NCBI GenBank assembly: GCA_013695505.1 | Contig: JACDAH010000417.1 | Coordinates: 1-10,092 of the forward strand | DNA length: 10,092 nt | Source: Chloroflexota bacterium | GTDB lineage: Bacteria > Chloroflexota > Limnocylindria > Limnocylindrales > CSP1-4 | Direction: 5' to 3' | Part shown: positions 2,386-7,731 of the stretch, piece by piece | How the letters are laid out: each line of letters begins with the position of its first letter | Position numbering within the stretch: the first letter of the stretch is position 1 | The notes under the pieces: generated by a model | The model's database searches: none | What the model was told of the DNA's origin: nothing | Seen by the model: only the letters and a program-made list of their open reading frames with translations | Program-made: the position numbers and the translations under genes

Positions 2386-3229
2386 ATGACGGCGCCGAAT
2401 GGGTCGATTGACGAAGCCCAGCCGGGCGATCGGATCGGTGGCTATCGACTGCTCCACATGCTCGGCGAGGGAGGCAGCGGGACCGTCTTCCTCGCTGACC
2501 GGGAGGGCTCCGGGGCTGGCCAGGTGGCGATCAAGATCCTGCACCGAAGGGTCGCCCTCGATCCGACTCTTGCCCGACGCTTCGCGCACGAGGCCCGGGC
2601 CGCGGCAGCCCTTCGTCATCCCGGCCTGGTCCCCTGCTCGAGGCGGGCGAGATCGATGGCCGTCGCTTCCTCGTCAGCCGATACATGGCTGGTGGATCCA
2701 TGGCGGTTCGTCTTGTCCGGGACGGGGCCTATCCGATCGGCGATGGACTTCGGCTACTCCGGGAGCTCGCTGGCGGCCTCGATGCGCTGCACGCGGCCGG
2801 GATCGTCCACCGCGACATCAAACCCGCGAACATCATGCTGGAGGCGGACGGGACGGCCGCGCTCGGTGATCTTGGTCTGGCGCGCGGTCACCGCGACACG
2901 GTTCTGACTCGACCCGGTCAGGTCCTGGGTAGCATGGACTATCTCGCCCCGAGCTGATCCGGGGGCACCCCGCGACGACGGCAAGTGCTCTGTATGCGCT
3001 CGGTTGCGTCGCCTACGCTGCGTTCGTCGGATCGCCCCCCTTCGCCGGGCGAAGCGCCATTCGTACAGCATTCGCCCATCTCGAAGATTCGCCGCTCGCG
3101 CCCGTCCTGCAGCGGCCGGAAATCGGCATCACGCTCAGTGCGTCCATTCTGCAAGCCCTTGCGAAAGCCCCTGGAGATCGACCGACCAAAGCATCCGCCT
3201 ACGCCGCCTCCCTCGCGCTCGGCCCGTAA
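2386..3229 (+). pseudogene. Ser/Thr protein kinase (PknB-like catalytic domain), two frameshifts
   Basis: Eukaryotic-type Ser/Thr kinase that would phosphorylate proteins from ATP. From the ATG at 2386 the frame encodes the glycine loop GEGGSGTVFLA (28-37), VAIK with K50, and E69 of helix C, then breaks at 2631-2637. The next frame carries HRDIKPAN (142-149) and DLG (162-164) and breaks at about 2945-2953, inside the APE motif. The third frame carries YALGCVAY, PPF and KAPGDRP and stops at 3227-3229. Adding one base at each lesion restores exactly 281 residues; without that, the first frame stops at 2905-2907 after 173 residues. Both lesions lie on a CCCC run where CCCCC would restore sense (GLVPLLEAGE and LAPELIR). 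The normally conserved Asp of helix F is Ala (202), which argues for some real decay. There is no membrane segment, so a cytoplasmic, domain-only kinase. It is either a pseudogene or a pair of homopolymer sequencing errors. Confidence 0.85.
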
Positions 3230-3337: not shown

Positions 3338-4612
3338 GTGAACGGTGTCCGAATGGGGATGGCGCCCGTCGAATTCGTCGCGGCCGCGTGTCGGCCATGG
3401 AATCGTGCGTTCGAGGCCGGGCGGAAGGTGAGCGATCCGATAGATGTGGGCAGGCCGCCAGTTCTTCGTATCCGAGTGGTCGAGCCAGGTCGGGCTCCCC
3501 GCTCACTCTCGAGAAATGCGTTCCCGACCCTCATCGGGCGTGACAGAGGCTGTGAGGTCGTCCTGCAGGATCCGCTCGTCTCACGCCACCACGCACAGAT
3601 CGACCTCGAGGCCGACCGCGGAGTCGTCATCCGGGATCTGGGCTCGTCGAACGGGACGTATCTTGCCGAGCGGCGGATTGCCGGGACGGAGGCGCTTTCC
3701 CTTCCCGCTCGGATTCGACTGGGCCGGACGATCCTTACCTTGGAATTCGACACGCCCGCAACCATCGTGGCGCCGGTTCCGTTTCCTGCATCGGCCGCCC
3801 CGGTCGACGCCGCCGCCGCCCCCGAACCGGTCGCCGTCGAACCGGTCGCCGCGGCCGAACCTGTCGCCGTCGAACCGACGATCCCGGTCATGTCGTCGTC
3901 GCCGCCGGGCAGGTCCTCGGTAGCGGACCCGGTCCGTAACGCGCCCAAGCGCCTAAGCGCACCGACGCCTCCGCTCCCGTCGCCCGCTTCGGGGTCCGTC
4001 GCCCAGCGCCCTCCCGGCACGACCAGGTCGATCCCAGCCCGGCTCGCGGTCATCGTCCTGCTGGCTGTCGCCGGCGTGGCAGCCCTGATCGCCACCGGTC
4101 AGTTCGGCTCACGCGCTCTCCCCGTCAAGTCGACGCCTCCGTCGTCGTCGGTTGCCGGCGCTGCGTCGATCTCGGTTCCAACCAGTTCCGGCGTCGTGGT
4201 CGCCCAGCCGTCGGGGCCGCCAGGAAGCGCTCCACCGGCGACGCGGCTGAAGTTCGAGATCACGCTTGACGGCAACACGATCGCGACAGACACGACGACG
4301 ACACCGACAGCGTGCACGCGTGCGGCCGGCGCTCCTCAGTCACTCATCATTGAGTACTCGACCACGTTCGGGGACACGACGAAGTTCTCGATCACAGTCG
4401 ACGATACGAGCGCCTCATTGCCGCATCTCTCGAAGGCAGATATCACGGTCGAGTTTGCCTCGCTGAGCAAGACGCTGACGTTGAGTGCTGCCGATGTCAC
4501 GTCTGTTGCGGTCGACGACAACGGCGACAGCGCGACGGTCACCCTGACGTCCAGAAACGCCCGCGGCGACTCCCTGACCGGCACGATCACGTGCAACGTG
4601 ATCGGGCCCTGA
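3338..4612 (+). CDS. FHA-domain single-pass membrane protein with exported C-terminal domain
   Basis: Phosphothreonine-binding FHA protein anchored in the membrane, 424 aa from the GTG at 3338. The FHA domain occupies about 42-138 with hallmark residues IGRD (66-69), SRHHA (82-86) and LGSSNGTYL (101-109). A low-complexity Ala/Pro/Glu/Val linker follows (140-232, repeating EPVAVEP), then one transmembrane helix (about 235-252), a Ser/Pro-rich exported linker (258-302) and a beta-rich, Thr/Ser-rich domain (303-422) with cysteines at 326 and 419 that could form a disulphide. The outer domain is not recognised. It begins 108 bp after the kinase stop on the same strand, so the FHA domain may read phosphorylation by that kinase. 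The start is uncertain: GGAGG (3331-3335) sits only 2 nt before the GTG; ATG at 3353 and GTG at 3428 are alternatives that keep the whole FHA domain. Confidence 0.85.
   Translation: MNGVRMGMAPVEFVAAACRPWNRAFEAGRKVSDPIDVGRPPVLRIRVVEPGRAPRSLSRNAFPTLIGRDRGCEVVLQDPLVSRHHAQIDLEADRGVVIRDLGSSNGTYLAERRIAGTEALSLPARIRLGRTILTLEFDTPATIVAPVPFPASAAPVDAAAAPEPVAVEPVAAAEPVAVEPTIPVMSSSPPGRSSVADPVRNAPKRLSAPTPPLPSPASGSVAQRPPGTTRSIPARLAVIVLLAVAGVAALIATGQFGSRALPVKSTPPSSSVAGAASISVPTSSGVVVAQPSGPPGSAPPATRLKFEITLDGNTIATDTTTTPTACTRAAGAPQSLIIEYSTTFGDTTKFSITVDDTSASLPHLSKADITVEFASLSKTLTLSAADVTSVAVDDNGDSATVTLTSRNARGDSLTGTITCNVIGP
3815..3880 (+). repeat. Short imperfect tandem repeat in the FHA protein linker
   Basis: Units beginning GAACCGGTCGCC recur about every 15-18 bp, encoding repeated EPVAVEP/EPVAAAEP in the cytoplasmic linker between the FHA domain and the membrane helix. 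Copies differ at single bases (GAACCG, GAACCT). Such runs usually vary in length between strains and form flexible tethers. Confidence 0.6.
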
Positions 4613-4822: not shown

Positions 4823-4828
4823 TATGCT
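4823..4828 (+). promoter_or_regulatory. Candidate -10 box for cpaF-ridA
   Basis: TATGCT is identical to the box ahead of the kinase gene at 2371. A transcript starting about 7 nt downstream would have a leader of about 97 nt before the ATG at 4932. No good -35 hexamer lies 16-18 bp upstream, so this is tentative. Confidence 0.3.
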
Positions 4829-4931: not shown

Positions 4932-6881
4932 ATGTCGCTGATGCAACGGGTCGAACGAGCCCAGCAGCGATCGCAGGCGATCGCGGCTGCGGAGGCAGCG
5001 GCCGTCGAAGCTGCCGCCGCGGCCGCGAATGGCCCGGGCCCGGCGGAGGCGGCCGAACTGCCCAAGTCGTCGTCGGCCACCACGGGGATCCCGGTCATGG
5101 GCGGAGGGCCGGCGGCCGACGTGGCCCCGGCGGCGATGGTTCCGGTGATGGAGCCGCAGTCCGCCCCGCTCCTGCCCCGGACACCCGCCCGCGAGGCGAT
5201 GCTGCTCGACATCCGCCATCGACTGGTCGCGGAGGTGATCACGGCCTTCGACACCCTCCTCGACGCCGAGGCGACAGACGTCCGGGCCAAGGTCGAGGCG
5301 ATCGTCGACCGGACGATCGGCCAGAACGGTTACGCCGTGACCCGCGACGAGCGGACGCGCCTCGTCGACGAGCTGGCCGACGACGTCACCGGCTTCGGGC
5401 CGCTCGAGCCGCTTCTCAACGACGAGACGATCACCGAGGTCATGGTCAACGGCCCGAGCCACGTCTACATCGAGCGGGCCGGCAAGATCGAGCGCGTCAA
5501 CAGCGCGTTTTTGAACAACGAGCACGTGCTCCGGATCATCGACCGGATCATCACCCCGATGGGCCGCCGGATCGACGAGATGAGCCCGAGGGTGGACGCC
5601 CGGCTGCCGGACGGCTCGCGCGTCAACGCGATCGTCGAGCCCCTGTCGCTCGTCGGGCCCGTGATCACGGTCCGCAAGTTCTCGCAGACGCCGTACACGG
5701 TTGACGACCTCATCCGGTTCGGCACGGCGACCCCGGAGATGTTCGAGTTCCTGCGCGTCTGCATCGAGGCCCGCCTGAATCTCTTCGTGTCGGGCGGGAC
5801 GGGCTCGGGCAAGACCACGACCTTGAACGTGCTCTCGTCCTTCATCCCGAACGACGAGCGGATCGTCACGATCGAGGACGCCGCCGAGCTGCAGCTCCGC
5901 CAGGACCATGTGATCACCCTGGAATCGCGGCCACCCAACCTGGAGGGCGAAGGCGAGATCACGATCCGCCAGCTGCTCAAGAACGCGATGCACATGCGGC
6001 CCGATCGGATCATCGTCGGGGAGTGCCGCTCGGGCGAGGCGCTCGACATGCTCCAGGCGATGACGACCGGCCATGACGGCTCGCTGTCGACCGGCCACGC
6101 CAACACGCCCAAGGACATGTTGCGGCGGCTCGAGACGATGGTCCTGATGACCGGCTACCAGCTGCCGCTCCGGGCGATCCGCGAGCAGATGGCATCCGCG
6201 GTGGACCTGATCGTCCACACGTCGCGGCTCAAGGATGGCAGCCGCAGGATCGTCAACATCACCGAGGTCTATGGGATCGAGGACGACGAAATCCTGACCC
6301 AGGACATCTTCGCGTTCGAGCAGACCGGCGTCCGCGACGGCAAGATCGAGGGCATGCTCGCGCCGACCGGGGTCCGGCCGACGTTCATGGACCAGTTCCG
6401 CAAGGCCGGGATCACGCTCCCGCCGGGCGACTACGGGATCCCGGCCGAGGACAAGGCCAAGCCCACCCGGATCAGCTCGACGAAGGGCCGCTGGGGCGCC
6501 GGCGACTCGTCCGACGGCCCGGTCGCCCCGATCCTGCCGCTCGGCTACGGCAAGGCCGTCAAGGCCGGCGGGATGGTCTACATCTCGGCCATCGGCCCGG
6601 TCGATCCCGACAGCGGCCAGGTCGTTGGCAGCACCATCAAGGCCCAGGCGCGCCAGTGCCTCGCCAACCTGAAAGGCAAGCTCGAGAGCAGCGGGACCTC
6701 GATCGACAAGGTCGTCTGGGCCAACTGGTCGCTCCGCGACGCGACCGAGTTCGACCTCTTCAACGAGGAGTGGGTCAAGGTCTTCCCGGGCGACGGGCCC
6801 GTCGGTCAGTCGACGATGATGACGCCGCTCCAGCGACGGGCCGGCTTCCGGCTCTCGATCGGGGTCATCGCCGAGGCCTGA
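4932..6881 (+). CDS. cpaF: CpaF/TadA-type secretion ATPase fused to a C-terminal RidA (YjgF) domain
   Basis: Hexameric cytoplasmic ATPase of the type II/IV secretion superfamily, normally powering Flp/Tad pilus assembly. 649 aa. Residues 1-85 are Ala-rich and low-complexity. The N-terminal CpaF domain follows (LLDIRHRLV, GFGPLEPLLNDETITEVMVNG). The motor has Walker A GGTGSGKT (288-295), an acidic motif TIEDAAELQL, the Walker B/SGEAxD segment RIIVGECRSGEALDMLQAM and the His box GHANTP. A typical CpaF would end near GDYGIP (about 505). Here the frame continues through a linker into a RidA-like domain (about 513-649): GYGKAVKAGGMVYISAIGPV from 538, DPDSGQVVG, and the conserved end QSTMMTPLQRRAGFRLSIGVIAEA. 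The catalytic Arg of RidA deaminases is Gln626. No frameshift or internal ribosome-binding site is evident at the junction. Partners TadB, TadC, RcpA and prepilin are absent from the window, so function in a pilus is inferred from family. The ATPase call is firm; the role of the RidA domain is unknown. Confidence 0.95.
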   Translation: MSLMQRVERAQQRSQAIAAAEAAAVEAAAAAANGPGPAEAAELPKSSSATTGIPVMGGGPAADVAPAAMVPVMEPQSAPLLPRTPAREAMLLDIRHRLVAEVITAFDTLLDAEATDVRAKVEAIVDRTIGQNGYAVTRDERTRLVDELADDVTGFGPLEPLLNDETITEVMVNGPSHVYIERAGKIERVNSAFLNNEHVLRIIDRIITPMGRRIDEMSPRVDARLPDGSRVNAIVEPLSLVGPVITVRKFSQTPYTVDDLIRFGTATPEMFEFLRVCIEARLNLFVSGGTGSGKTTTLNVLSSFIPNDERIVTIEDAAELQLRQDHVITLESRPPNLEGEGEITIRQLLKNAMHMRPDRIIVGECRSGEALDMLQAMTTGHDGSLSTGHANTPKDMLRRLETMVLMTGYQLPLRAIREQMASAVDLIVHTSRLKDGSRRIVNITEVYGIEDDEILTQDIFAFEQTGVRDGKIEGMLAPTGVRPTFMDQFRKAGITLPPGDYGIPAEDKAKPTRISSTKGRWGAGDSSDGPVAPILPLGYGKAVKAGGMVYISAIGPVDPDSGQVVGSTIKAQARQCLANLKGKLESSGTSIDKVVWANWSLRDATEFDLFNEEWVKVFPGDGPVGQSTMMTPLQRRAGFRLSIGVIAEA

Positions 6882-6954: not shown

Positions 6955-7731
6955 ATGCCGGTGCCCTACGTCCTGCGTCGCTCTGCCCGCTCCCGACGGC
7001 TCCGGATCACGATCGATCCGGAGCTGGGTCTGGTCGTCACGGTGCCGCTCGCCAAGCGGCGCGGCTGGGCCCATCCCGAGCGGATGATCGACGACTTCAT
7101 CGGCGAGCGCGAGCCATGGATCCGTCGCCACCTCGATCGACAGGCGCGTGAGCGGGCCGAGCTGCGGGCGCGCGGCGGGCTGAGCGATGGCGCCTCGATC
7201 CGCTACCTGGGCGAGTTCCACCGGCTACGGGTCGCGACGGCGACGAGTGGCCGGCGGTCGTCCGTCGCCCGCGTCGTGACCTTGGCCGGGCCGGAGCTCC
7301 ACCTCGGACTGCTCGCCCGCGACCTCGACCGGGCAGACCGCGTCCTCGAGGCCTGGTTCAGGGAACAGGCTCGCTTCGTGATCGAGGCCACGATCGCCGA
7401 TCATGCGTCGGGCCTTCGGGTCACGCCGACGGCCGTCGCCCTGCGTGACCCGCGGAGCCGCTGGGGGAGCGCGTTACGCCAGGGTCGCTTGATGTTCAGC
7501 TGGCGGCTCGTGCTCGCTCCGCCGGAGGCACTCGAGACCGTCGTGATCCATGAGCTGGCTCATCTCCGCGTGTTCGGCCACGGGCCGCGGTTCTGGGCGG
7601 TGGTCGCATCGCGCCGTCCCGACCACCTGACGTGGCGACGCTGGTTGCGCACTCACTCGCTCGAGCTCCACGGGGCGTTGGCAGGGGAATCGAGCGAGGA
7701 GCCGGCGACGGTCGAGTCGTCAGCCGGCTGA
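6955..7731 (+). CDS. YgjP/DUF45-family zinc metallopeptidase-like protein
   Basis: Putative metal-dependent hydrolase of the YgjP (DUF45, M48-like) family, 258 aa, cytoplasmic with no signal peptide. The N-terminus RRSARSRRLRITIDPELGLVVTVP is the usual opening beta segment. The family signature lies in the C-terminal half: RDPRSRWGSALRQGRLMFSWRLVLAPPE (164-191, the RSRWGS box), then HELAH (199-203) with a third ligand at H209 in FGHGPRFW, giving HExxH-x5-H with E200 as the likely catalytic residue. All key residues are present. The physiological substrate of this family is not well established. The C-terminal tail after about 240 is Glu/Ser-rich and unconserved. Its last 12 bp overlap the convergent kinase-like gene on the other strand. 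Confidence 0.92.
   Translation: MPVPYVLRRSARSRRLRITIDPELGLVVTVPLAKRRGWAHPERMIDDFIGEREPWIRRHLDRQARERAELRARGGLSDGASIRYLGEFHRLRVATATSGRRSSVARVVTLAGPELHLGLLARDLDRADRVLEAWFREQARFVIEATIADHASGLRVTPTAVALRDPRSRWGSALRQGRLMFSWRLVLAPPEALETVVIHELAHLRVFGHGPRFWAVVASRRPDHLTWRRWLRTHSLELHGALAGESSEEPATVESSAG

Follow-up and report, generated by a model that had tools for sequence, protein, structure and literature searches.

Within a 10,092-nucleotide stretch of Chloroflexota DNA (the window), one reading frame carries a CpaF-type secretion ATPase followed by a RidA/YjgF domain, which raises the questions of whether such a protein is real and of what a pilus motor would do with a domain from an enzyme family. 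The frame indeed runs on the forward strand from the ATG at 4932 to the TGA at 6879-6881 without an internal stop and encodes 649 aa, in which Pfam T2SSE matched residues 153-428 with 206.1 bits against a cut-off of 24.9 and Ribonuc_L-PSP matched 538-624 with 51.6 bits against 27.3, thus bearing out the original prediction of a CpaF-RidA/YjgF fusion in one uninterrupted frame. The frame is open further upstream, where the first ATG lies at 4824; the start at 4932 is backed by an MSLL/MSLM-type N-terminus in many relatives. The predicted linker is also present, although at about 36 residues (500-535) it is somewhat longer than the roughly 30 first given, and it is partly conserved (GIPPED, KGRW). 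As set out below, the fusion appears to be a spare motor or a regulator of the motor, ancient and modified, and not an enzyme. Its parts are as follows.

4932..6881, + strand: CpaF-Rid fusion gene, 649 aa plus stop (open frame; Pfam T2SSE and Ribonuc_L-PSP; 54 related loci in named genomes)
4932..4967, + strand: N-terminal motif MSLMQRVERAQQ, resembling MSLLKRIESARP of the same genomes' ordinary CpaF in a comparison of N-termini; predicted helix 3-32
4968..5186, + strand: variable low-complexity N-terminal stretch, IDR-like (pLDDT below 50 at residues 34-80; variable against the related locus L053)
5187..5381, + strand: three-helix bundle region (helices 85-109, 114-132 and 138-153 in a low-confidence model)
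5382..5681, + strand: motor NTD with Asp215 (platform contact, Loop 8), Arg224 and Arg230 (alignment and column counts)
5682..6428, + strand: ATPase domain, CAD (T2SSE match; 400.6 bits to CpaF of PDB 9e24)
5793..5816, + strand: Walker A GGTGSGKT, residues 288-295 (sequence)
5991..5993, + strand: codon CAC (His354), aligned with the Caulobacter CpaF trans arginine finger R347 (9e24 alignment; row counts)
6429..6536, + strand: linker with GIPxEDxAKP- and KGRW-type motifs (alignment of relatives)
6537..6878, + strand: Rid-fold domain without the catalytic arginine
6717..6728, + strand: Trp596 and Trp599, fixed in fused Rid domains only (Trp in 51/51 fused, 0/11 free-standing)
6804..6806, + strand: codon GGT (Gly625), aligned with RidA Arg105 (Gly in 51/51 fused, Arg in 11/11 free-standing)
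6834..6839, + strand: two-residue insertion (RR) of the fused Rid domain (filled in 51/51 fused)

The name of the three-helix bundle is taken from the CpaF architecture in PMC12019362, and the roles given to the Asp215, Arg224 and Arg230 places come from PMC11300603 and PMC12019362.

Reality, distribution and origin of the fusion

We compared the junction among the 54 related loci of named genomes, which are all labelled Chloroflexi, Chloroflexota, Limnocylindrales or, in one case, Anaerolinea sp. Of these, 50 showed CpaF sequence and the Rid domain joined in a single frame, and the other four are cut by contig ends, L100 and L102 beginning inside the Rid domain and L105 and L106 stopping in the linker. 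In addition, both Pfam domains were present in all 120 of the proteins among the matches listed (120 of 1678). The CpaF-Rid fusion is genuine and in frame. An assembly or prediction error that joined two genes only on paper, raised earlier in the form of separate genes with a lost stop or a frameshift at the junction, is virtually impossible, because the junction and its linker motifs are conserved and the frame changes that do exist, in two of the 50 loci (L071 and L091), sit inside the CpaF core; L087 is truncated upstream, and no such defect was seen at any junction.

Across the class, the fusion was found in 53 of the 107 genomes of the window's Chloroflexota family and in none of the 70 others, where a fused genome is one with a Rid-tail match of at least 136 bits, counted by hand; several of these matches are cut by contig ends (down to 84 residues in G005), and a 50-residue Rid-tail piece in G104 was excluded. 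The full-length fusion was present in 17 of 61 relative genomes. In a sample of 400 genomes from the phylum, matches of the fused type (251-312 bits) were confined to the window's family, and six genomes of other families gave weaker matches (88-123 bits) in open frames of 128-254 aa, which are apparently free-standing Rids. The search patterns for related loci were derived from the fused clade itself and could thus have overlooked CpaF-Rid fusions that arose independently. Two fused copies occur in some genomes (G127 and G090; L078 with L082; L083 with L087).

In the tree of the motor core, all 46 fused rows formed one side of a long-stemmed branch with 100/100 support, apart from 22 unfused rows, and the branches were longer in the fused genes than in the tad CpaFs of the same family. 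The tree thus places the fused motors in one ancient clade, which also argues against an assembly slip. The fused domains likewise formed one group in the Rid tree (51 rows; support 100/99), a tree with an unsettled bootstrap and a long-branch warning, and seven free-standing Rids with PARQG or PSRQG sided with this group against four other Rids. The simplest reading of these relationships is that an old cpaF copy was joined once to a Rid-type domain. Loci L023-L038 were excluded from the trees and column counts, as the same contigs, judged by their identical lengths, are covered by the named loci from L053 on. The Rid columns exclude L102 and L103 (short) and L105 and L106 (cut before the domain), with L100 counted as fused, while the motor columns exclude nine loci in which the core is absent or too short and keep the divergent paralogs L112 and L122 separate from the 20 unfused motor rows.

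The parent families, CpaF/TadA and Rid, are already known, and the fusion was not found described before: the open-licence papers covered here yielded no published description of it, in agreement with the earlier statement that no described role is known for it.

The motor half and the Rid domain

We then assigned the motor residues through an alignment to PDB 9e24, in which the platform residues E331-G334 (PMC11300603) land on matching letters. Among solved structures, CpaF chains matched the protein at about 400 bits and the next distinct sequence (2oap, 'Type II secretion system protein') at 160.8 bits. The curated TadA model TIGR03819 (NCBIfam) gave 320.4 bits, below its cut-off of 373.15, on the fusion protein. 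The curated cut-offs for VirB11 and TrbB secretion ATPases were not reached (219.1 against 249.95 bits for VirB11, 202.5 against 304.55 for TrbB).

The fusion shares with CpaF/TadA (PDB 9e24, 8rkd and 8rjf) the N-terminal motif, the variable stretch, the three-helix bundle, the NTD and the ATPase domain, as well as Walker A and B, the Asp and His boxes and the platform-contact residues. Unlike them, it carries a C-terminal Rid domain, has His in place of R347, lies outside the tad operon and has a changed charge in the central loop. The three CpaF architecture classes of PMC12019362 differ at the N-terminus, and the main text of that paper has no match for RidA or a C-terminal extension. The CpaF-like N-terminal motif is present in many fused rows, and residues 1-85 of the window protein share 49% identity with L053 at a dN/dS of 0.30. 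For the CAD the same pair gave 0.13, a ratio that indicates purifying selection on this domain.

The motor had been described as complete, with Walker A at 288-295. GGTGSGKT was indeed found there, and the other catalytic residues checked were kept in all 46 fused rows, namely Walker A K294/T295, Walker B E364, E315, D316, H389, R224, R230 and R356, together with the Asp-box E319 and R366. The motor falls slightly short of completeness, however, since it lacks the trans arginine finger: the R347 equivalent, residue 354, is His in 46/46 fused rows, whereas it is Arg in 20/20 ordinary CpaFs and in 2/2 divergent paralogs. On this alignment, the ATPase site is intact at the checked residues except for the R to H change at the trans arginine finger. 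In Caulobacter CpaF, R347 serves as the arginine finger, reaching the gamma-phosphate of ATP from the adjacent subunit (PMC12019362, PMC11300603); it is described as conserved throughout the ATPases of type IV filaments, and changing its equivalent in PilT abolished twitching (PMC12019362). Seven of the 212 columns invariant in the unfused rows were changed in all 46 fused rows (106, 108, 354, 447, 451, 484 and 490), and residue 354 is the sole one of the seven with an identical new residue throughout. His354 and Gly625 occurred together in all 43 rows showing both domains.

The residues given a platform-contact role by mutants of Caulobacter CpaF (PMC11300603) were retained in the fused rows, with D215, E338 and G341 in 46/46 and G339 in 45/46. 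In the central loop, which meets the platform, position 340 is Lys or Arg in 20/20 unfused but in only 5/46 fused rows (Glu in 19, Leu in 7, Thr in 5, Gln in 4), and A342 is changed to Glu; this change of charge suggests that the partner may have changed. The full-length model of the fusion protein was poor (pLDDT 63, with parts of the ATPase core below 50) and was thus left out of the fold comparison.

We next considered whether the C-terminal domain could be an enzyme. Its Rid fold is predicted to be intact, and its Pfam match lies above the cut-off, as would be expected of a working imine or enamine deaminase tethered to the motor. However, the one arginine required for imine hydrolysis by Rid proteins (PMC4433059) is Gly in every fused row and Arg in every free-standing Rid, so that the Rid half, at the level of its residues, is not expected to hydrolyse imines; a tethered deaminase, with the activity that the original prediction names for free-standing RidA proteins, is thus highly improbable, mainly on account of this column. 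The Glu120 place points the same way, being Gly in 49/51 and Ser in 2/51 fused rows, but it is a weaker point because Ala stands there in 7/11 free-standing rows as well. TIGR00004 scored 51.4 bits on the fusion protein, below its cut-off of 106.25. The Rid part gave a dN/dS of 0.17 between the window and L053, a ratio indicating that the domain is under purifying selection; four other pairs ranged from 0.14 to 0.49, and a pair so close that it shows hardly any changes came to about 1.

Compared with RidA/YjgF/UK114 proteins, the fused Rid domain thus has Gly for the catalytic Arg, Gly or Ser at the Glu120 place, two fixed tryptophans, a two-residue insertion and an attached motor. The free-standing Rids have a gap at insertion column 635 in 11/11 rows and at column 636 in 10/11. 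The Rid4-Rid7 proteins resemble the fused domain, by residues alone, in having no catalytic arginine and in not being expected to hydrolyse imines (PMC4433059). Their arginine place is Trp or variable and their Glu is kept (PMC4433059), whereas the fusion has Gly at the former and Gly or Ser at the latter. The window's own genome also encodes an ordinary Rid domain with both Arg and Glu present (L120, contig C444), which forms the last part of a 497-aa open frame running in from the contig end.

Genomic setting and possible role

To place the fusion relative to the tad genes, we compared fused and unfused loci, with gene families named from representatives. The ordinary cpaF was accompanied by CpaB, CpaE and two T2SSF genes (TadB and TadC) in 11/11 unfused loci, whereas the CpaB, TadB and TadC clusters were found in 0/17 fused loci, and the single fused locus among these with a member of the CpaE-containing cluster has a response regulator there. 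Around all 55 fused loci, some of them on short contigs, there was no match to CpaB, TadB or TadC; tad-region proteins matched in two clusters only, a receiver-domain one and one other, and the three of these proteins that were examined proved to be a histidine kinase and two response regulators. A role as part of the tad operon is ruled out by these counts. The fusion gene is a paralog apart from the tad operon, in which the ordinary CpaF is kept. A histidine kinase and a response regulator (L053, 5242-7682) or a response regulator (L101, 7782-8552) lie near the fused gene in some relatives.

An unfused CpaF was present in 17/17 genomes with the full-length fusion and, by hand count among the matches listed in the class search, in at least 40 of the 53 fused genomes. 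In 11 fused genomes, T2SSF genes lay on the contig of the unfused CpaF in 11/11 and on that of the fused gene in 0/11, and in eight of the 11 the T2SSF genes number just two, both next to the ordinary CpaF. If the fusion drives a pilus, it therefore most likely uses the platform of the ordinary CpaF. Dependence on the tad locus was not borne out by co-occurrence, as T2SSF was found in 44/53 fused and 43/54 non-fused genomes of the family (Fisher p 0.80, a comparison that includes 20 genomes without a T2SSF match); nine fused genomes were without T2SSF where incompleteness alone predicts 8.9, so that co-occurrence neither supports nor excludes a Tad role.

Our leading reading, which we hold tentatively and at somewhat less than even confidence, is that the fusion is a second, slowed or regulatory Tad motor whose Rid domain would act as an assembly or sensing cap. 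An ancient cpaF copy would have moved away from the tad operon and gained a Rid-type domain by joining, after which both halves would have become fixed in altered form. The fused protein may still form or join CpaF-type hexamers and could work on the TadB/TadC platform, either as a motor of reduced speed or in a regulatory role, by weakening the ATP site of a neighbouring subunit. A ring made up entirely of fused subunits would be slow because it has no trans arginine finger, and a fused subunit mixed with ordinary CpaF would weaken the site of one neighbour. The Rid domain would then be a non-catalytic cap that sets timing, as a 3+3 trimer clasp (the Rid family is typically trimeric; PMC4433059), a ligand pocket or a docking face. 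The roles first suggested for the RidA module, namely to template assembly, to sense a metabolite or to recruit a partner, are all still candidates.

Extra motors of such a kind are known from PilU in type IVa pili, a precedent for the second-motor reading. PilU, a paralog of PilT, works together with it, the two apparently forming separate homohexamers (PMC6821130), and the fusion resembles it by analogy, as an extra paralogous motor that would work with the main motor and its platform. The corresponding arrangement was found in 11/11 fused genomes, where the fused paralog has no platform gene nearby and the genome has both a platform and a main motor. PilU differs in that no Rid domain is reported for it, and the term 'arginine finger' has no match in PMC13142100.

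A serious, if less probable, rival is that the ATPase has been taken over for another task, driving a non-Tad membrane or cytoplasmic partner that the Rid domain would bind. The fused gene stands apart from the tad genes with no widely conserved neighbour, the charge of its central loop has changed, and its branches are longer than those of tad CpaFs in the same family. Furthermore, only two of 34 high-quality genomes were without T2SSF at E values up to 1e-12, namely G076 and G079 (90 and 92% complete), and both carry the fusion; these two genomes, together with an unfused CpaF listed in only that portion of the fused genomes given above, are what make this rival serious. Yet D215, E338 and G341 are invariant in the fused rows, many of which also keep the CpaF-like N-terminal motif, and the number of fused genomes without T2SSF is the one that incompleteness alone predicts.

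A more specific form of the second Tad motor, which we consider rather unlikely as it stands, is a regulatory subunit that would mix into or stack on CpaF rings, withhold the trans arginine finger and be switched by the dead-enzyme Rid trimer. We know of no earlier 'clutch' of a Tad pilus, and this subunit, if real, would be the first. Less likely again is a metabolite- or redox-sensing valve, in which the Rid cleft, having lost its carboxylate-binding arginine and gained two tryptophans, would bind a new ligand and switch the ATPase. Trp596 and Trp599 and the two-residue insertion, fixed in all fused rows of a domain whose fold is predicted intact, are consistent with such a valve, but a contact with the motor would account for the changed residues equally well.

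For the preferred reading as a second Tad motor, the interest lies in how a single ATPase, CpaF, both extends and retracts Tad pili, the Tad system being described as relying on a single bifunctional ATPase for both movements (PMC12019362). In recent structures R347 stands out as the residue with which a subunit reads its neighbour's ATP (PMC12019362, PMC11300603), and a whole clade of extra motors with a natural R to H change at the finger offers a natural test of its job. The fusion is also a case of a metabolic-enzyme fold joined to a molecular motor, apparently as a non-catalytic part.

Finally, no widely conserved neighbour that would name a function was found within 6 kb of the fused genes, the largest frame family reaching 12/55 loci. 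In the window, an FHA-domain protein (PF00498) with a long Pro/Ala-rich stretch lies just upstream of the fusion (3338-4612, + strand) and is matched by none of the frames in the 54 other named loci. Further upstream, the frame at 2685-2957 (+ strand) encodes one half of a Ser/Thr protein kinase domain (PF00069, profile positions 80-166, 56.6 bits). Judged by eye, its N-lobe seems to lie in another frame, 1528-2907, for which Pfam gave no match, so that this kinase may be frameshifted or otherwise broken. Downstream, a YgjP-like metallopeptidase (6955-7731, + strand) begins 73 bases after the fusion, and in 8/55 loci, the window included, a relative follows the fused gene at a distance of 74 to 3215 bases.
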